A stretch of DNA of 64,000 bases from Sphingobacteriales bacterium (GTDB lineage: Bacteria; Bacteroidota; Bacteroidia; Chitinophagales; CAIOSU01), in the NCBI GenBank assembly GCA_027483645.1, contig JAIXUD010000022.1, forward strand, positions 434,001 to 498,000. The letters run 5' to 3'. The translations under genes were made by a program, and so were the position numbers. Positions 11,103 through 47,356 of this stretch are shown here, piece after piece. How positions within the stretch are numbered: the stretch's first letter is position 1; each line of letters starts with the position of its first letter. A model generated the notes under the pieces. That model was given only the letters and a program-made list of their open reading frames with translations. It made no database searches and was not told where the DNA came from.

Positions 11103-11123
11103 TGGGTGTGAAGATAATTATTT

Positions 11124-11155
11124 GTTGCGGGTTACGAGTTACGGGTTACGAGTTG
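11124..11155. repeat. Heptamer array, GTTACGR family (no close inverted partner)
   Basis: Units GTTGCGG, GTTACGA, GTTACGG, GTTACGA, GTTG, located 21 nt upstream of the glucosidase start codon. No inverted copy is visible within 1 kb. Confidence 0.75.
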
Positions 11156-11502
11156 TTTCTACATAACATCTGTCACCCCGACCTTTTCGGAGGGGTCTCT
11201 TTATGATTGGGTAGTTAAGGTGCGGTTGTGTATAACATTGTCAAAGCCCAGCGTGTCATCCTGAGCCGTGTCGAAGGGTGCAAGCGATTGCTTTGCACTC
11301 CGCAGTTTTTCACGAAGGAGTGCCACATGCGGGTGGTGAAGGTGCAGTTTTGTGGTTGAGGTTGTGCGGGGTTGGGGAGCCTAGTTCTTGGCGGCACTGT
11401 TCATGTTACGCGATGAGGCGAAGCTTCTTACCTTCAGTGCCACGGGAGGCACAGCTTCCGCAGAGTACGGGGGAATTGAAAGAATAATTATGGCTTATTT
11501 TC
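11156..11502. repeat. Non-coding gap with dispersed-repeat fragments
   Basis: No credible gene is seen here. A fragment of the type GTCACCCCGAC...CGGAGGGGTCTC lies at about 11170-11202. A TCATCCTGAGCCGTGTCGAAGGGTGC sequence lies at about 11252, and its near copy at about 62721 is also followed by AGCGATTGCT. Both belong to short repeat types that are widespread in this phylum. Confidence 0.6.
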
Positions 11503-19317: not shown

Positions 19318-19343
19318 GTATCAAATATAAGCAATTGGGGATG

Positions 19344-19443
19344 GTTACGAGTTGCGAGTTACGTGTTACGAGTTGGAAATGTGAATAAATTAGGAAAACA
19401 AAAGTTACAGCAACCCGTAACTCGCAACTTGTAACCCGTAACT
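19344..19443. repeat. Inverted pair of GTTACGR heptamer arrays
   Basis: The left arm at 19344-19375 reads GTTACGA, GTTGCGA, GTTACGT, GTTACGA, GTTG. The right arm at 19411-19443 reads CAAC, CCGTAAC, TCGCAAC, TTGTAAC, CCGTAAC. They are separated by 35 nt between the FkbM start and the hutI stop codon. Confidence 0.85.
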
Positions 19444-36582: not shown

Positions 36583-36612
36583 AAGGGCTGCCCGCGAGGG
36601 TGGCCCTTTTTG
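36583..36612 (+). terminator. Intrinsic terminator of the adhesin/SprF operon
   Basis: AAGGGCTGCCC, loop GCGA, GGGTGGCCCTT and a run of T form a GC-rich hairpin with two imperfect pairs, 58 nt after the stop codon. Confidence 0.75.
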
Positions 36613-36643
36613 TTACGAGTTACGGGTTGAGGGTTACGAGTTG
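36612..36643. repeat. Heptamer array, GTTACGR family (left flank of a gene)
   Basis: Units GTTACGA, GTTACGG, GTTGAGG, GTTACGA, GTTG. The inverted counterpart at 37543-37575 lies on the other side of the hypothetical membrane-protein gene. Confidence 0.85.
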
Positions 36644-36724: not shown

Positions 36725-37525
36725 ATGTTGGATAGAGCTTTATGGGAGAAGGTCAAGAGGGGCTTTGCGATAATCGCACTGTTAGCTTTTACCCTGATAG
36801 GGTATTATGTGGGTTTTTTATGTAAGCCTTATTGGTCGTTTAATGTAATCGCATCTTTAGTGTGCTTCTTTACTCCATCGCTTCTAATGGTGATTTATGC
36901 ATTAGTTACTGGCGAAAATGCTTTGATAGCCATTTTTTCAAAACGCAAGGCAGCCATAGCTACGGCATGCTATCTTATACTTTGGCTTTCATTTGGGATA
37001 ATTATCGAGGTGTACCGCCTTAGCAATAGAGCCTTTTTAACGACAAATGATTTCCAATCTATTGCCCTTTCTCTATCTAATACCACTGTGCAAACTTTTG
37101 GCGGTGATTATAAGCTTCCTAAGTACTTTCTTACTATCAAAGAATATCCAAGGGCAATATTCTACATTTCAAGAGGTGTTTTAAACAAAGAAACCGTTGA
37201 AGCAATAAATGAAGAGATCAGGCAGGGAAGCACGGTAAGCATCGATGTTACCAAAACAGATTTTGATACGAAGCTTACTAAAAATAAACAAATGGGTATT
37301 CTAAACTGTCTCTATTGTCCACAGATAGTAGAAATTCATTCATTTACTAGGGGATCCAACCATATTTTACCCTTAACTGATGAATCCGTAAATAGGGCTA
37401 ACACTTTTGTTTGGGCATTGGATGGGCTAAATATTGCGGTTTTTATCCTCTTGCCGATCTTTTTTCTATATCGATTAAGGAGAAATTGGAGCATTAACAA
37501 GGAAAGAGGTTTTACTGATTCTTGA
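36725..37525 (+). CDS. Hypothetical four-helix membrane protein
   Basis: I do not recognise this 266-residue protein. Hydrophobic segments lie at about 14-32 (FAIIALLAFTLIGYYVGFL), 39-62 (VIASLVCFFTPSLLMVIYAL), 75-97 (AIATACYLILWLSFGIIIEV) and about 232-252 (LNIAVFILLPIFFLYRL). A ~130-residue soluble domain between the third and fourth contains ILNCLYCPQIVEIHSF. The gene is AT-rich compared with its neighbours and has no operon partner. It is bracketed by an inverted pair of GTTACGR heptamer arrays (36612-36643 and 37543-37575), as if carried in a cassette. Acquisition by transfer is possible. Confidence 0.75.
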   Translation: MLDRALWEKVKRGFAIIALLAFTLIGYYVGFLCKPYWSFNVIASLVCFFTPSLLMVIYALVTGENALIAIFSKRKAAIATACYLILWLSFGIIIEVYRLSNRAFLTTNDFQSIALSLSNTTVQTFGGDYKLPKYFLTIKEYPRAIFYISRGVLNKETVEAINEEIRQGSTVSIDVTKTDFDTKLTKNKQMGILNCLYCPQIVEIHSFTRGSNHILPLTDESVNRANTFVWALDGLNIAVFILLPIFFLYRLRRNWSINKERGFTDS

Positions 37526-37542: not shown

Positions 37543-37575
37543 CAACTCGTAACCCGTAACTTATAACCCGCAACT
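37543..37575. repeat. Heptamer array, GTTACGR family (right flank of a gene)
   Basis: Units CAACTCG, TAACCCG, TAACTTA, TAACCCG, CAACT lie 17 nt after the membrane-protein stop and 6 nt before the mnmD start codon. The array is in inverted orientation to 36612-36643. Confidence 0.85.
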
Positions 37576-37581
37576 AAGTTT

Positions 37582-38921: not shown

Positions 38922-38926
38922 GGTAA

Positions 38927-39064
38927 GTTACGGGTTACGAGTTGCGGGTTTCGAGTTGCAACTTGTAAGTGTACTTTTTCTTACTAAAACTTATTGTGAC
39001 CTTCTGAGAATAGAATAGTTAATTGGATATAAAACTCGCAACCCGTAACTCGTAACTCGCAACC
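38927..39064. repeat. Inverted pair of GTTACGR heptamer arrays
   Basis: The left arm at 38927-38968 reads GTTACGG, GTTACGA, GTTGCGG, GTTTCGA, then GTTGCAACTTGTAA. The right arm at 39033-39064 reads AACTCGC, AACCCGT, AACTCGT, AACTCGC, AACC. The pair lies upstream of miaB and is followed by a GTCCACR-type array at 39074-39102. Confidence 0.88.
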
Positions 39065-39073
39065 GGTTTTATC

Positions 39074-39168: not shown

Positions 39169-40638
39169 ATGTCTGACCTGCAATTTCAACACACTTCCAG
39201 ACAGCCAGTAGAAGAGGCGAGGCAAGGTGAGGCGTATGCCCCTGCCATTGATGAGCTGGTGCCCGTGGGCACGAAGCAGTTCTATATGGAGAGCTACGGC
39301 TGCGCCATGAACTTTAGCGATAGCGAGATTGTAGCATCCATCCTTAAAGACAACGGTTTCAGGCCCACCAAAGAGTATCTACAGGCCGACCTGATATTAA
39401 TAAACACCTGTGCCATCCGCGACAATGCCGAGCAGCGCGTTCGCGCCCGGTTGGCCGAGCTGGGTGCAGTGAAAAAGACCAAACCCGAAGCTGTAATAGG
39501 CGTGCTAGGCTGCATGGCCGAGCGCTTGAAAGCTAAGTTTCTAGAGGAAGAAAAGTTGGTGGATATTGTAGTAGGCCCCGATGCTTACCGCGATTTGCCT
39601 AACCTAGTACTTACTGCCGACAGCGGCCAAAAAGCCGTGAACGTATTGCTGAGCCGTGAGGAAACCTATGCCGACATAAGCCCGGTGCGTATTGATAGCA
39701 ATGGTGTTTCGGCATTTGTGTCGATTACCCGTGGATGCGACAATATGTGTACTTTTTGCGTGGTGCCGTTTACCCGTGGCCGTGAGCGCAGCCGCGACCC
39801 GCAATCCATCATGGCAGAGGTAAACGATTTGTTCAACCGTGGTTTCCGTGAGGTGACTTTGTTGGGGCAAAATGTGGATAGCTACTTGTGGTATGGCGGT
39901 GGTCCGAAGAAAGAGTTCGAAAAACAAACCGAAGAGATACAAGCTGGTGCTACCACCTTTGCACATTTGCTGGAAATGGTGGCCCAAGTAAGCCCGAAGC
40001 TACGGGTGCGCTTTAGTACCAGCAACCCCCGCGATTTGACGGAGGAAGTGGTATGGGCCATGGCCAAGTACGACAACATCTGTAAGTGCATACACTTGCC
40101 GGTGCAGAGCGGCAACACCCGAATACTGGAGAAAATGAACCGTGGCCACAGCCGCGAGCAGTATATGCAGTGGATTACCCGCATTAAAGAGATTGTTCCC
40201 AGTATGTCGCTAACAACCGATATGATAGTGGGCTTTTGCAGCGAGACGGAAGAGGAGTTTGAGGATAGCCTGAGCTTGATGGACTGGGCCGGTTTCGATT
40301 ATGCGTATATGTACTTCTATAGCGAGAGGCCAGGCACACCCGCGGCGAAGAAATTCCCGGATGATGTATCGCTGGAGGATAAGAAGCGCCGGTTGGCAAA
40401 GATGATTAAGCAGCAGCGCGAGCGTAGTGAGCTGAACAACCAAAATGACCTAGGGCAAACCTACGAGGTACTGGTAGAGGGTTTTAGCAAGCGCAGTGAA
40501 GAGCAATTGGCTGGCCGCAACAGCCACAACAAAATGGTTGTTTTTACTAGGGTTGAGGGTATAAAGCCTGGCGACTATGTAATGGTGAAAATAACCAGCG
40601 TAACCTCAGCGACGTTGTTGGGAGAGATGGTGCTTTAA
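39169..40638 (+). CDS. miaB: tRNA-2-methylthio-N6-dimethylallyladenosine synthase
   Basis: The 489-residue radical-SAM methylthiotransferase carries the N-terminal cluster cysteines in [26 protein letters not shown] and LGCMAERLK, the radical-SAM CxxxCxxC in [19 protein letters not shown], MiaB-typical [19 protein letters not shown], and a C-terminal TRAM domain. It adds the methylthio group to i6A37 of tRNAs; the substrate base is made by MiaA, also encoded in this window (59320). I start at the ATG at 39169 because the upstream extension overlaps the promoter box. The gap to the next gene is filled by a long heptamer hairpin. Confidence 0.95.
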
Positions 40639-40644
40639 ATGCAA

Positions 40645-40796
40645 AATATGAAATGAGAAATATGAAGTAGGAAATGCGAAATGAGAGATAAGAAATAGGA
40701 AACGTTATTATCGTTTCATTTCGTGTCCCTGATTTCTTATCCCATATCTCATATTTTTAATTTACCTTTTCGCATTTCTTATTTCAAATTTCATAT
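40645..40796. repeat. Longest inverted heptamer pair, AATATGA family
   Basis: The left arm at 40645-40700 has eight units (AATATGA, AATGAGA, AATATGA, AGTAGGA, AATGCGA, AATGAGA, GATAAGA, AATAGGA). The right arm at 40734-40796 has nine (TTCTTAT, CCCATAT, CTCATAT, TTTTAAT, TTACCTT, TTCGCAT, TTCTTAT, TTCAAAT, TTCATAT). Both arms keep an exact 7-nt step. The pair fills the whole miaB-to-regulator gap. Confidence 0.9.
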
Positions 40797-40802
40797 TTTA
40801 AA

Positions 40803-42065
40803 GTGGTGGACTTAAACAGTGTAAAACAGCGTTTCGGAATTATCGGCAAATCGCCTGAGCTGAACTACGCCATTAGTATTGCCGTTCGCGTGGCCACAAC
40901 AGACCTTACCGTACTCATTACGGGCGAGAGCGGTGTGGGCAAGGAGATTTTTAGTAAGATCATCCACAACCTCAGCACCCGCAAACACAATCCTTTCATC
41001 GCCGTAAACTGCGGCGCGATACCGGAAGGCACAATCGATTCGGAGCTCTTTGGCCACGAAAAAGGCGCTTTTACCGGTGCAAGCGACGCGCGCAAAGGAT
41101 ACTTTGAGCATGTGCAGGGCGGCACCATTTTCTTGGATGAGATAGGGGAGATGCCCCTGGGCACCCAAGCCCGTTTACTGCGGGTGCTGGAAACGGGGGA
41201 GTTTATCCGCGTAGGCTCCAGCAAAGTAATGAAGACCGACGTGCGCGTGGTGGCTGCTACCAATGTGGACTTGATGGAGCTGATTAAGCGGGGCAAATTC
41301 AGGGAAGACCTTTATTACCGCTTAAGCACGGTGCCTATTAAGGTATCGCCACTAAGGGAGCGCAGGGAGGATATTTACCTGCTGTTCCGCAAGTTTGCTG
41401 TTGATTTTGGCGAGAAGCACCGCAGCCCAGCCATTCAATTGGATGAAGAGGCGCAGCAAATGCTCACTACTTACGACTGGCCCGGCAACATCCGCGAATT
41501 GAAGAACATTGCTGAGCAGATATCTGCATTGGCAAGCGATAAACTGGTTTCCGCCTCCGAACTAAAGCAGTTTCTGCCTACCCAGAACCGTAGCGGTTTA
41601 CCGGCCATACCCCAACTAGCAGGAAACAATAGAAATGATACAGGTACGGGCGACTTCTCCGAAAGGGAATTGCTGTACAAGTTGTTTTTCGATATGAAAA
41701 AAGACTTAAACGACCTGAAGAAGTTTATCTTTGATTATGTTGGTAAGCAACCCTTGGATTATTCCAAGAGCAAAGCTGCCCAGCCGCATATGGATGAAGG
41801 GATGCTGGCCCATTTGGATGATTATGAGGACGATGAGATGCCAACTGCCCGCCCGATTGTGATTGACAATCCGCAGGTGTATAGCAACACGCGCCAAGTA
41901 ACCGTGCAGGAAGAAACTTCCCTGTCGCTAGCCGATAAGGAAAAGGAGATGATACAGGCAGCATTGAAGAAACACAAAGGCCGCCGCAAGGATGCCGCTT
42001 TGGATTTGGGTATTTCGGAACGGACACTTTACCGCAAGATTAAGGAGTATAAGATTGCGGAGTGA
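40803..42065 (+). CDS. Sigma-54-dependent Fis-family transcriptional regulator
   Basis: The 420-residue protein has a sigma-54 AAA+ domain directly at the N-terminus: Walker A TGESGVGKE (40-48) and the sigma-54 contact loop GAFTGA (88-93), with DVRVVAATNVDL further on. A spacer at about 270-380 leads to a Fis-type helix-turn-helix (HKGRRKDAALDLGISERTLY). No receiver or sensor domain is present. The start is GTG at 40803 or the adjoining GTG at 40806; both are preceded by heptamer repeats. It precedes lptE, a neighbourhood common in Bacteroidota genomes, and probably acts constitutively or with a separate partner. Confidence 0.92.
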   Translation: MVDLNSVKQRFGIIGKSPELNYAISIAVRVATTDLTVLITGESGVGKEIFSKIIHNLSTRKHNPFIAVNCGAIPEGTIDSELFGHEKGAFTGASDARKGYFEHVQGGTIFLDEIGEMPLGTQARLLRVLETGEFIRVGSSKVMKTDVRVVAATNVDLMELIKRGKFREDLYYRLSTVPIKVSPLRERREDIYLLFRKFAVDFGEKHRSPAIQLDEEAQQMLTTYDWPGNIRELKNIAEQISALASDKLVSASELKQFLPTQNRSGLPAIPQLAGNNRNDTGTGDFSERELLYKLFFDMKKDLNDLKKFIFDYVGKQPLDYSKSKAAQPHMDEGMLAHLDDYEDDEMPTARPIVIDNPQVYSNTRQVTVQEETSLSLADKEKEMIQAALKKHKGRRKDAALDLGISERTLYRKIKEYKIAE

Positions 42066-42071
42066 TTTTGA

Positions 42072-42215
42072 TGTACAATGTACAATGTACGAAGTACAAT
42101 GTAAAAAATGTAAAAAGGTTAGAGGGATAAATGGCTAGAACTGGAAATCCATTTAGTTTTCAAAGTAATGTGAGGCAACATTGTACCTTGTACATTGTAC
42201 TTTGTACATTATTTT
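42072..42215. repeat. Inverted pair of TGTACAA heptamer arrays across the lptE start
   Basis: The left arm at 42072-42103 reads TGTACAA, TGTACAA, TGTACGA, AGTACAA, TGTA. The right arm at 42181-42215 reads TTGTACC, TTGTACA, TTGTACT, TTGTACA, TTATTTT. The lptE start codon (42131) lies in the loop, and the right arm is coding sequence for the signal peptide. Confidence 0.9.
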
Positions 42216-42670
42216 TCTTCAGCTCATGCTATTCCTTTAAAGAGGGCCGTATTGCGCCAGAGATAACTACGGTTTCTATATACAATTTCACCAACCAATC
42301 GGCCAACGGTAATGCCCAGCTAAACCAGGGCATGACCGATGCGCTGAAGAACCGTTTTATCACCCAAACTAACCTGCGCCTAGTGCCATTAGGTGGTGAT
42401 ATTGAGTTTAGCGGGGTTATTACGGGTTACTCAGTGTTAGGTACTGCCGCTGCAGCCAACCAAACCACTGCGTTGAGCCGATTAACGATTACCGTCAAGG
42501 TTGATTTTGTGAACAATACTAAGCCGGGAGACCAATGGAGCCAATCATTTTCGAGGTTTGCTGATTATAGTAGTGCGCAAAATTTGTTGGATGTTGAGGC
42601 ACAATTGCTCCAAGATATTTATTTTCAATTGGTGGAAGACATTTATAACAAAGCCCTAGTAAACTGGTAA
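42131..42670 (+). CDS. lptE: LPS assembly lipoprotein LptE
   Basis: The 179-residue lipoprotein has lipobox FFSSC with Cys33. The mature part has the LptE pattern of this phylum: EITTVSIYNFTNQSANGNAQ, NQGMTDALKNRFITQTNLRL, DIEFSGVITGYSV and a C-terminal helix ending VEDIYNKALVNW. LptE plugs the LptD barrel that inserts LPS into the outer membrane. The hydrophobic part of its signal peptide, CTLYIVLCTLFF, is encoded by a TTGTACA heptamer array. The 17-residue n-region before it (MARTGNPFSFQSNVRQH) is unusually long. Its stop overlaps the next start by one base, so the two genes are translationally coupled. Confidence 0.88.
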   Translation: MARTGNPFSFQSNVRQHCTLYIVLCTLFFFSSCYSFKEGRIAPEITTVSIYNFTNQSANGNAQLNQGMTDALKNRFITQTNLRLVPLGGDIEFSGVITGYSVLGTAAAANQTTALSRLTITVKVDFVNNTKPGDQWSQSFSRFADYSSAQNLLDVEAQLLQDIYFQLVEDIYNKALVNW

Positions 42671-44088
42671 TGGAAGCTAAACAATTCGCGGAGCTATTAA
42701 AATCGCCCCTGCTGGTAGAGCAACTACCGGTGGACGCCCTCCGTGATTTGGTGAATCGCTACCAGTTTTCGCCGAGCTTGCAGATGCTTTTGCTCAAGCA
42801 CCACCAGCTAAACGAGCACCCCGCTTATGATGAGCAGCTGGCCAAAGCCGCCATTTATGCGCCAGATAGGCGGGCGCTGTATCGCTTGGTGCAATTGAAG
42901 CCTGTGGTTGGAGAGACCCGTTCGCCATATGAGCGGCCAGAAGTAGTAACCGAGCAACCTGCGCCTGAAGAAGAGCCTCTTACAGCATCAGTTGTAGAAA
43001 AGATTGTTGTTGACGAGCCTTTAGTCGCTACCCCCGAAACTAACACTTGGCACCTGCCGATTGAGCCTGGCGTTTTGCCTTACGAGAATGTAAGTGACGA
43101 TGAGATTGTGGAAGAAGTTGCTCCGGAAAAACAAGATCAAACCGCATCAACTGAGTCCTATCAGCCCGCCCAGCACACAGCAGAAATTATTGAAGTTGCG
43201 TCATACGACCCCGAAAACCACAAGTTGGAATTGGTGGAAATAGCACCAGTGCCATTCTTTGATTTATCAGAGTTTATTGTGCCAAATGAGCCGATAGAAA
43301 CTGCTGAGCAAACTATTGAAGAATCGCTAGTAGAAGAAAAAGCAGCATATATTCCTGATCAAGAGGTAGTTGTAATTCCTGAAACAGCAGAGGAGTTTTT
43401 TGTTGAGGAGGTGGTAGTTGAACCAACTGTTGGAACCGAGCCAGAGCAACCTGTTATTGAAGATCAGGAAATACTGGTGGCGCAGGAGGAGGTTGTGGAA
43501 GTAGTAGTTGTGGAAGAGGGGACCCCTACGCCAATTGTTGAGGAGGTTGAATTTGTACCTGAAATTGAGGAAAAATCCGAACCTGTTATAACCGCACAAG
43601 AAGATGCTGTTATTAAGCCACAACCGGCCATCGATAGCAAAGATAGCTTCAACGGCTGGCTACAGCGCCTAAAGCGGCATGAAATACCTCTTATTGAAGA
43701 TCAACTCGTAATTAGTAACTCGAAACCCACAACTGATTTAGGGGAAGATAAAGCCGAACTAGATGCCTTGCTCGGGGCCGTTAGCTATGAAGCCGCTTTG
43801 ATTAAGGACTCCATTGATATGCCGATTAAGCCGTTTATCGACCCCACAGCGAGGCACACTAAGGAAGAGCTGATGGATGCCGACAGTGATGCCAACAAGC
43901 GCATGGACGAACAGGCTAGAAAGAGCCTAAGCATGGGAGAGGAGTTGGTAACGGAGACCTTGGCCAAAATATACGAGATACAAAAGAAAACAGCTAAAGC
44001 CATCGAGGCTTACGAGATACTCAAACAGCGGCATCCGCACAAAGCCTATGAGTATGATAAAAAGTTGCAAAAGTTGCGGGAAGGGTAA
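42670..44088 (+). CDS. Conserved Bacteroidota hypothetical with TPR-like C-terminus
   Basis: The 472-residue protein has an N-terminal helical segment (KQFAELLKSPLLVEQLPVDA), a long acidic Glu/Val-rich low-complexity middle (about 90-330), and a C-terminal TPR-like hairpin (LAKIYEIQKKTAKAIEAYEI followed by LKQRHPHKAYEYDKKL). There is no signal peptide. In related genomes a protein of this kind typically lies between lptE and secG; its role is unknown. It overlaps lptE by 1 nt. Bases 43702-43734 match the GTTACGR heptamer family (inverted sense) and are translated as part of QLVISNSKPTT, so a repeat appears to sit in frame inside the gene. Confidence 0.8.
   Translation: MEAKQFAELLKSPLLVEQLPVDALRDLVNRYQFSPSLQMLLLKHHQLNEHPAYDEQLAKAAIYAPDRRALYRLVQLKPVVGETRSPYERPEVVTEQPAPEEEPLTASVVEKIVVDEPLVATPETNTWHLPIEPGVLPYENVSDDEIVEEVAPEKQDQTASTESYQPAQHTAEIIEVASYDPENHKLELVEIAPVPFFDLSEFIVPNEPIETAEQTIEESLVEEKAAYIPDQEVVVIPETAEEFFVEEVVVEPTVGTEPEQPVIEDQEILVAQEEVVEVVVVEEGTPTPIVEEVEFVPEIEEKSEPVITAQEDAVIKPQPAIDSKDSFNGWLQRLKRHEIPLIEDQLVISNSKPTTDLGEDKAELDALLGAVSYEAALIKDSIDMPIKPFIDPTARHTKEELMDADSDANKRMDEQARKSLSMGEELVTETLAKIYEIQKKTAKAIEAYEILKQRHPHKAYEYDKKLQKLREG
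43702..43734. repeat. In-frame heptamer array inside a gene, GTTACGR family
   Basis: Units CAACTCG, TAATTAG, TAACTCG, AAACCCA, CAACT match the intergenic array at 37543-37575 in unit length, number and order with few changes. It lies in the low-complexity-to-C-terminal transition of the hypothetical protein. Confidence 0.6.
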
Positions 44089-44599
44089 TGTTACGCTTGT
44101 TAATTAGGATTTAGTTGAAAAGACTGCCCAGTTAAACTAGTTATGGAGCGACCATAACGGCTGCTCCAACTGCGATAGGAAATATTCGTTCTTCGCACGC
44201 TTACTCTTTCTAATTTTTTGCCGTGGGTTGCCGACCAGAGCAACTTGTACCGCTTGGGAGGGAACAATAACCCGGATATGAGTCAATGGAGGTCCCCTAA
44301 ACTTGTTTCAATTTCTTCTACGTAAGCACTTTTAGAAGGTTTCAAGTAATGTTGATAAAAATTTAGCCCGCAACTAAAGTTGCTGATAATCAATGCTTTA
44401 ATTTGAAGTGATGGGATTATTTTCAGTTAATTTCAAACTATCTATTGCTTTATTTGGTTACCGAAGCTACATTGTCCCTATAATAAAGCCATTAGTGCTT
44501 GACAATGAAGCTTCTTATAGTTAATTTTACTGAGATAATAAGCGACCAGACCAACTTGTTTCGACCATAGTTTTTAATAAGTAAACTAAATACCCGGAT
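44089..44599. other. 511-bp gap with a duplicated leader-like motif
   Basis: No gene is seen. GACCAGAGCAACTTGT (44233) with CCCGGATATGAG (44271-44282) is echoed by GACCAGACCAACTTGT (44544) with CCCGGATATGAG (44593-44604), the second spanning the start codon of the next gene. The first copy leads only to a 14-codon open frame. A 14-bp palindrome GCAACTAAAGTTGC lies at 44370-44383. Confidence 0.55.
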
Positions 44600-46536: not shown

Positions 46537-46571
46537 CCGATTAACCGATTAACAGATAAACCAATCAACCC
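46537..46571. repeat. Octamer array, inverted GGTTGATT family
   Basis: Units CCGATTAA, CCGATTAA, CAGATAAA, CCAATCAA, CCC end 9 nt before the TPR-gene start codon. It is inverted relative to both 46374-46430 and 47271-47302. Confidence 0.8.
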
Positions 46572-46580
46572 TAGAAAAAC

Positions 46581-47270
46581 ATGAATCGTAACCTACTACT
46601 ATTTACATTTATTGCCACAGCACTACCATTTGCCAGTTTTGCGCAAAAGAATGTACCTGCCAATGTGGTAACTACCAATAAAACCATCTACGATAAAGCT
46701 ATTGAATATGGCGACTTAAATACGGCCATTGTTGCGGCGCATACCATTTTAGCCAATTCGCCAAACGACTACCACTATATGGATTCGCTGGTTGGGCTGT
46801 ACTATGATGCTGGTAATCTGGTAGCTGCCATCAACATTGGTAACGATATACTGGCGGCTGCCCCACAGAACGTAGCAGTAAGGGAAGTGGTAGCGAATAG
46901 CCAACTAGCCCTGGGTCTTAACGGCGAGGCTATGCTCAACTACCAAGACCTATACACCCGCACAGGTTATTTGGTGTATTTATACAACATCGCCACTACC
47001 CAGTTCAGTATGAAGAACTTTACCGAGTGCACCACCACAATAGATAGCATCTTGGCATCGGACAAAAATATGACCGAAGTAGTGATAATTAATGCCGACG
47101 GCCAATCGGAACCGGTGGCGTTGAAAGCCGCTGCTTACAACATTAAAGGTGCCATAGCCATGGAGCTTAATAATGCCGCCATCGCCAAGCAAAACTTTGA
47201 GGAAGCCCTGAAAGTTGCGCCTAACTTCACCTTGGCCAAAAAGAACCTCGAAGCGGTTACTAAGAAGTAA
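46581..47270 (+). CDS. Periplasmic TPR protein
   Basis: The 229-residue protein has a signal peptide (MNRNLLLFTFIATALPFASFAQ) and helical pairs of the TPR type: AIEYGDLNTAIVAAHTILAN, LYYDAGNLVAAINIGNDILA, NLATTQFSMKNFTE-like and, at the end, AMELNNAAIAKQNFEEALKV. It probably mediates protein contacts in the periplasm; no partner can be named. It is bracketed by an inverted pair of octamer arrays, one ending just before the start and one starting on the base after the stop codon. Confidence 0.8.
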   Translation: MNRNLLLFTFIATALPFASFAQKNVPANVVTTNKTIYDKAIEYGDLNTAIVAAHTILANSPNDYHYMDSLVGLYYDAGNLVAAINIGNDILAAAPQNVAVREVVANSQLALGLNGEAMLNYQDLYTRTGYLVYLYNIATTQFSMKNFTECTTTIDSILASDKNMTEVVIINADGQSEPVALKAAAYNIKGAIAMELNNAAIAKQNFEEALKVAPNFTLAKKNLEAVTKK

Positions 47271-47302
47271 ATCGGTTTATCGGTTGATGAGTTAATCGGT
47301 TC
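47271..47302. repeat. Octamer array starting at a stop codon
   Basis: Units ATCGGTTT, ATCGGTTG, ATGAGTTA, ATCGGTTC begin on the base immediately after the TPR gene's TAA (47268-47270). Confidence 0.8.
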
Positions 47303-47320
47303 TATTTAGCCATTAATTAA

Positions 47321-47350
47321 TTGTACATTGTACTTTGTACATCGTACATG
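47321..47350. repeat. Heptamer array, TGTACAA family
   Basis: Units TTGTACA, TTGTACT, TTGTACA, TCGTACA match the lptE array in orientation. It is followed by a short AGACACA-family piece (TCTTGTG, TCTTGCA) at 47355-47368. Confidence 0.8.
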
Positions 47351-47356
47351 AAAATC

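Follow-up and report, generated by a model that had tools for sequence, protein, structure and literature searches.

How does a dispersed repeat come to be read as part of a conserved envelope protein? The question arises at the gene for LptE, an essential protein, in the window (the whole 64,000-nt stretch of DNA analysed here), where two inverted arrays of a heptamer word lie between a regulator gene and the mature part of lptE. Comparison of the locus with its relatives suggests that a pair of gene-border repeats very probably supplied the core of the LptE signal peptide, and that arms and spacer appear to have been replaced together with mature LptE unchanged. Genomes are referred to by handle: G000 is the genome of the window, G001, G002, G003 and G004 are its congeners, and G005 and G006 belong to two other genera of the same family.

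Heptamer arms between regulator and lptE

The two arms, compared over 42071-42102 and 42178-42209, are complementary at 29 of 32 positions (91%) and lie 75 nt apart; the lptE ATG at 42131 sits inside the 75-nt loop between them, and the regulator stop is only a few nt upstream of the 5' arm (Table 1). The original prediction of an inverted partner upstream of lptE, with the start codon in the loop, therefore holds. The same is true, to within a few nt, of its claim that a TTGTACA array at 42181-42215 encodes the core of the LptE signal: TRF places the 3' array at 42178-42210 (period 7, 4.7 copies) and our lag scan at 42176-42213, in frame with the ORF 42131-42670, where it reads H-C-T-L-Y-I-V-L-C-T-L-F-F-F-S-S-C. 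This ORF matches PF04390 (LptE; E 2.9e-17, residues 46-174, 63.9 bits against a cut-off of 23), and the 3' arm codes for CTLYIVLCT within the core of the signal, the array supplying roughly the first ten residues of CTLYIVLCTLFFF.

Table 1. Features of the regulator/lptE junction and a further arm of the same word (positions in the window)
Feature	Position	Strand	Basis
Upstream gene: sigma-54-type AAA regulator with Fis-type HTH	40803..42065	+	PF00158 E 2.8e-69, PF02954 E 2.1e-14
5' heptamer arm GATGTAC-AATGTAC-AATGTAC-GAAGTAC-AATGTA	42070..42103	+	repeat and pairing scans
Spacer/loop carrying lptE start, single copy in genome	42104..42176	+	own-genome DNA search
lptE ATG start; alternatives GTG 42170, TTG 42188	42131..42133	+	ORF calls, comparison
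3' heptamer arm, inverted copy, translated	42177..42212	+	TRF, pairing, translation
Predicted signal-peptide hydrophobic core CTLYIVLCTLFFF	42182..42220	+	translation
Mature LptE from lipobox Cys	42227..42667	+	PF04390; dN/dS vs congeners
Another TGTACA-word arm within the window, non-coding	47317..47351	-	repeat scans

Period 7 stands out in the window, which holds ten lag-7 arrays, two at lag 6, one each at lags 8 and 12 and none at lags 4, 5, 9, 10, 11 and 13; the ten at lag 14 are expected from the same lag-7 arrays. Simulated sequence gave no lag-7 array in any of ten first-order and twenty second-order runs, and an inverted pair of at least 29/32 with a gap of up to 150 nt, found once in the window, was seen in none of five simulations. 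Rfam returned zero matches in 40000-44500, and a plasmid collection zero matches to the element. The regulator is a common neighbour in ten compared records, recognised by its C-terminal motif. An AAATAAG-type heptamer pair (40644-40702 / 40766-40802) occupies the gap ahead of it, the second array ending flush with the regulator GTG start at 40803.

The predicted signal, CTLYIVLCTLFFFSSC, has the layout of a lipoprotein signal with a loose lipobox. The original claim that the array ends just before the lipobox stands as regards order, the array preceding the Cys, but the lipobox reads FSSC, which departs from the textbook pattern L-x-G-C. In its best 11-residue hydropathy (2.64) the G000 core falls within the span of 51 non-array homologues (1.98-3.62). 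Might the array be an untranslated leader, its match to the signal being a coincidence or due to a miscalled start, with the LptE signal elsewhere? Sequence cannot prove start codons, and arrays in G000 often precede apparent true starts. However, only LFFFSS separate the array from the lipobox Cys, so that no start could yield a signal without some of the array being translated (with GTG 42170 or TTG 42188 it would still be translated, wholly or largely), and G001 and G004 are arranged similarly, all of which makes a leader most unlikely to our minds. As for the mature protein, G000 versus three congeners gave dN of 0.106-0.116 and dS of 1.77-2.00, which is near saturation and excludes one pair without dS; these values indicate that purifying selection acts on mature LptE.

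The junction in relatives

LptE was located in 59 of 60 genomes, the genus member G003 being the one without, and 57 loci were read to the lipobox (L065 and L069, with no tblastn hit, were left out). When the 90 nt ahead of the lipobox Cys were scored out of 21 at each lag, lag 7 reached at least 16 in six and at least 15 in eight of the 57 genes, while none reached 15 at lags 5, 6 or 8-12. The six are G000, G001, G002 and G004, all of one genus, plus G014 and G032; G052 (L030) and G018 (L018) top out at 15. The array itself forms the hydrophobic core in G000, G001 and G004 (LYIVLCT, LYIVLCT and LYFVFCT types). In G002 it encodes NRKSYFVNRTS, right before a core, IYFAIIALSLFF, most of which falls outside the array. 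Three MAGs (Chitinophagales M30B48, uncultured bacterium Loclat bin-14753 and Sphingobacteriales C1_MAG_00009) have junctions identical over the compared stretch to those of G004, G001 and G002, respectively.

All four genus members having lptE carry the insert, and G005 and G006, one genome per sister genus, do not. The distance from regulator stop to lipobox Cys is 161-212 nt in the genus versus 56 nt in G005, 95 nt in G006, where the lptE ATG overlaps the regulator stop, and 84 nt in G018 of the same order. Together with an arm word found at about 33 places, this supports the original prediction that a repeat replaced the export signal; its other option, that the repeat created one, is unsupported because LptE of the outgroups already carries a signal. 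We envisage that one inverted pair entered the regulator/lptE junction in the genus of the window, where the former start and the greater part of the former signal gave way to it, and that its 3' arm now encodes the hydrophobic core of the lipoprotein signal (in G002, residues just ahead of it), an arrangement seen by comparison whose use in the cell we infer.

Tandem 7-mers can arise through slippage, and the old signal might have expanded on the spot by heptamer duplication with no element inserted. For the genus we think this very unlikely, given the upstream inverted partner, the word at about 33 places, the copy-number peak at 4.5 (45/97) and a gap of 161-212 as opposed to 56-95 nt; moreover, a partly expanded old signal without an upstream arm is seen in none of the four members. 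It may hold for G014 and G032, where a local origin is possible because the word at lptE turned up only once in the sequence searched. In G014, from another family, two arrays form most of the lptE signal, with TTTGCTA for the core, and three copies of this word in a row have a single exact match in its genome, the one at lptE; none of its own family or genus is among the 12 matches listed for its kin. The G032 case (L033) is weak at 16/21, and an 80-kb sample held no other lag-7 array at a cut-off of 16. A repeat-free relative with the same signal DNA, which the original prediction took as a sign of coincidence, is not what we see in and around the genus, where relatives without the insert have other DNA; G014 and G032 do have period-7 signals with no second copy of the word found. 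In G048 (L055, another family of the order) lag-7 arrays are found ahead of lptE and outside the signal, between about 207 and 117 nt from the Cys.

How such a junction may change is suggested by G001 and G002. Their mature LptE proteins are 98.7% identical (dS 0.218) and the flanks 95%, 95% and 91% identical in DNA, whereas the spacers share 44% identity in an alignment with 45 gap columns and the arms, which use a TGTACA-type word in G001 and an ATTTACG-type one in G002, are 53% (5') and 73% (3') identical. In the converse pair, G001 and G004, flanks of 76%, 79% and 58% identity go with a spacer of 93%. Unlike spacers and arms between like flanks seem, in this single pair, to reflect replacement of a cassette, though either of the two genomes may be misassembled at the site, the relatives being draft assemblies and the named records MAGs. 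Going by this pair alone, arms and spacer would be replaced together over short times, so that the signal changes and the mature protein stays. The G000 spacer matches itself alone in the own-genome search, and in seven genomes the G002 spacer has one full match, which is to itself; that the latter holds a captured gene was considered and rejected, its 32-aa reverse-strand frame being without a Pfam match. Mobility of the repeat, as originally proposed, finds support only as turnover in the G001/G002 comparison, and the spacer is unique.

Alternatively, gene conversion or drift of the word may have altered the arms in place, with the spacer replaced or scrambled separately. Arms of G000, G001 and G004 vary around one word by point changes and indels, and the 73% identity of the G001 and G002 3' arms implies that this arm may be altered rather than new. 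Yet the spacers of this pair share 44% identity (45 gap columns) despite flanks of 91-95%, and both arms changed word, which makes piecemeal change rather unlikely in our view. Taking joint replacement of arms and spacer further, one may picture the two as exchangeable 5' cassettes, replaced whole by recombination or some enzyme. This would amount to natural shuffling of signal peptides at exported genes, with frame-independent hydrophobic heptapeptides making most swaps tolerable, and is a tentative idea that we hold to be possible rather than probable.

It was also predicted that the hairpin may gate translation. If so, pairing of the mRNA arms would control access to the lptE start and be under selection, the peptide being a by-product. 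Folding is strong in G000 (z of -4.58; -4.63 in a first fold) and G002 (-3.77), where own arms pair far better (-52.5 and -51.2 kcal/mol) than cross pairs (-21.4 and -32.5), suggesting that both arms changed together. In G004 (-1.72) and G001 (-1.45), however, folding is near background (G006 -0.65 and G005 -0.55, both without the element) and own arms pair no better than cross pairs; 27 of 35 listed TGTACA arms have no close partner; and a joint change of arms is also expected from replacement of a whole cassette. The prediction thus finds support in two genomes (z of -4.6 and -3.8) and little in the two others (-1.7 and -1.5), and we see gating as a weak possibility and selection for it as improbable.

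Heptamer arms across the genome and among known repeats

Searching the own genome with the element gave 83 DNA matches, nearly all to the arms, which merge within 300 nt into 30 places at E <= 0.001, 33 at E <= 0.01 and 40 at E <= 10. Three copies of TTGTACN are present in five of 60 genomes (that of the window, three congeners and G027). The TGTACA type is one of several heptamer words used in the genome: a scan of 920,577 nt from the own genome counted 144 lag-7 arrays (at least 16/21), so that the genome total would extrapolate to some hundreds. Arms measure about 30-35 nt, with 4.5 copies in 45 of 97 period-7 TRF rows, and many of the TGTACA type are built alike (GATGTAC-AATGTAC-GATGTAC-AAAGTAC-AATGT with small changes). 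TCTTGTG in three copies has 61 exact matches in G000 and none in 394 other genomes of the phylum, a sample without a congener; one stretch of G002 does hold the word. Two genes for four-helix-bundle (23S IVP) proteins in the genome were considered as drivers of the repeats, an idea we dropped. Long heptamer arrays also lie at the end of contig C1 (L185, about 500560-500608 in a contig of 500,706 bases), and assemblies may break at such arrays.

By ORF calls, arrays are intergenic in 40 of 49 and 26 of 32 cases. Non-coding TGTACA arrays have their outer end nearer the gene in 25 of 29 cases (p 1e-4) and GGTTATT arrays in 11 of 12, the orientation of the latter having been named after the test; AGACACA (10/15), GTTACGA (11/14), AAATAAG (4/4) and GGTCCAT (14/23) are each non-significant alone, and all these counts leave out 78 unassigned arrays. 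Among 26 neighbouring pairs (within 250 nt) ten are inverted with the same word, six direct and ten of different words, as against 44 inverted in 600 random pairs; by our count, 27 of 35 listed TGTACA arms have no nearby partner in the list. In the window, a gene at 36725-37525 is bracketed by inverted GTTACGA-type arrays (36609-36643 / 37543-37577, 899 nt apart, 77% complementary) and a TPR protein gene at 46581-47270 by inverted octamer arrays, CCGATTAA (46537-46570) and AATCGGTT (47270-47301). Our reading of the genome is of many dispersed arms, most often of 4.5 units, that sit at gene borders, some as inverted pairs around a spacer.

Much of this resembles the GGGAATC and GGGGA(T/C)T heptamer repeats described in Xanthomonas and Nostoc (Rehm et al. 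2015, PMC4692102), which, going by the main text, share the 7-nt unit, the preference for four units (4.5 copies in 45/97 here), intergenic position and strand polarity. They too lie close to a gene on one side, at means of 28 and 160 nt where our TGTACA arrays have medians of 19 and 138 nt, and form convergent pairs, many in Xanthomonas and few in Nostoc (10/26 neighbouring pairs here). In contrast, theirs are G-rich with G-quadruplexes proposed, and here a single array out of 170 carries at least four GGG tracts on the same strand; one or more GGG occur in 16 of 19 GTTACGA-type and none of seven TGTACA arrays. A four-unit architecture at gene borders in arrays nearly all without such tracts calls the quadruplex into question as the general reason for it. 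In the main text of PMC4692102 'signal' is used once, for a CD signal.

A predicted signal peptide derived from a repeat is on record for YPO1552 of Yersinia, with the RU-2 / YPAL element (Delihas 2007, PMC2759123, PMC2229807). As far as those accounts go, that case involves a 168-nt MITE and an uncharacterised protein. Here the repeats are short heptamer arms, the protein is a conserved one of the envelope, more than one gene is concerned, and close relatives seem to differ by an exchange. TAACTGA heptamer arrays occur at gene starts in Beggiatoaceae and also in five Bacteroidetes (MacGregor 2015, PMC4679880); like ours they are stop-free in reverse orientation, and some sit at ORF edges, one of them right at the start of an ABC permease gene. 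They differ in using one word and direct repeats with one indirect, and the text examined makes no signal-peptide claim. Neither TAACTGA nor TCAGTTA is among the array words listed in our lag scan. Rickettsia palindromic elements (PMC2229807) likewise put a repeat into conserved protein genes with the frame kept, but have a conserved stem-loop, and signal peptides are not mentioned in the text examined. Our element has terminal inverted repeats (29/32) like a bacterial MITE, but its interior is not multicopy, the G000 and G002 spacers each matching just themselves. Porphyromonas gingivalis is of the same phylum as the bacterium of the window. Its BrickBuilt (PMC4596501) is likewise a tandem repeat inside an inverted-repeat element, with a 23-nt unit, however, and a position described as always intergenic. 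A similar heptamer architecture and one repeat-derived signal are already published, and their combination was not found in our literature searches; among openly licensed PMC papers none was found that describes heptamer arms as signal peptides.

Other probable array-coded signals

As 7 and 3 share no common factor, all frames of an array give one and the same cyclic heptapeptide, which offers a simple reason why arrays can code for signals. An arm may thus serve as a signal where its word is stop-free and hydrophobic as well. When consensus arms were typed in the orientation found upstream of genes, this was so in three frames for TGTACA, AGACACA and AAATAAG (mean hydropathy 1.01, 2.49 and 1.35), whereas the arms for GTTACGA, ATGGACC, GGTTATT and the word of G002 are either hydrophilic or interrupted by stops.

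We scanned 1,075,577 nt of own-genome sequence, plus 75 kb of G002 and further arm loci, for array-coded signals and judged them by eye. In the scanned G000 sequence three were accepted, all using words of the TGTACA/AGACACA/AAATAAG group: LptE, a TonB-dependent receptor and a small T9SS-tail-like protein. GTTACGA-type arrays, common in the window (11122-11156, 19342-19443, 38926-39067), are not among them. The receptor (L073:15912-18884, PF00593) has a TCTTGTG-type predicted signal, MPFLVSCVFCLVSIPRITFLMSCVLCLVSIAGTA, before QNG, with an uncertain start, and its orthologues have plain signals, MKNICLLLLLLATTFGIATAQ in G004 and MKFFNFLLLLLVCSLGVAQA in G002. In the third gene (L073, about 3328, reverse strand) the predicted signal is of AAATAGG type in G000, again with an uncertain start, and the small protein matches TIGR04183 (T9SS tail) weakly, at 17.4 bits and below the cut-off; at this place the DNA of three congeners is AATAACC-like, lacks periodicity at lag 7 (10-12/21) and scores 16/21 (G002), 14 (G004) and 13 (G003) at lag 15.

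With LptE, dispersed non-coding repeats would supply part of a conserved envelope protein, and the receptor would add another case, a polarised one, from this genome. This may offer one concrete route for the evolutionary exchange of signal peptides, a poorly known process. Considered as a fourth case, a lipoprotein at C10:25660-26238 is ambiguous and was not counted, the congeners aligning through the region without arrays, and several N-terminal arrays (C10:259687 and others) look by eye like 5' leaders of cytosolic proteins. Further hydrophobic arrays are present in the scans, for example at C21 about 239186 on the reverse strand.
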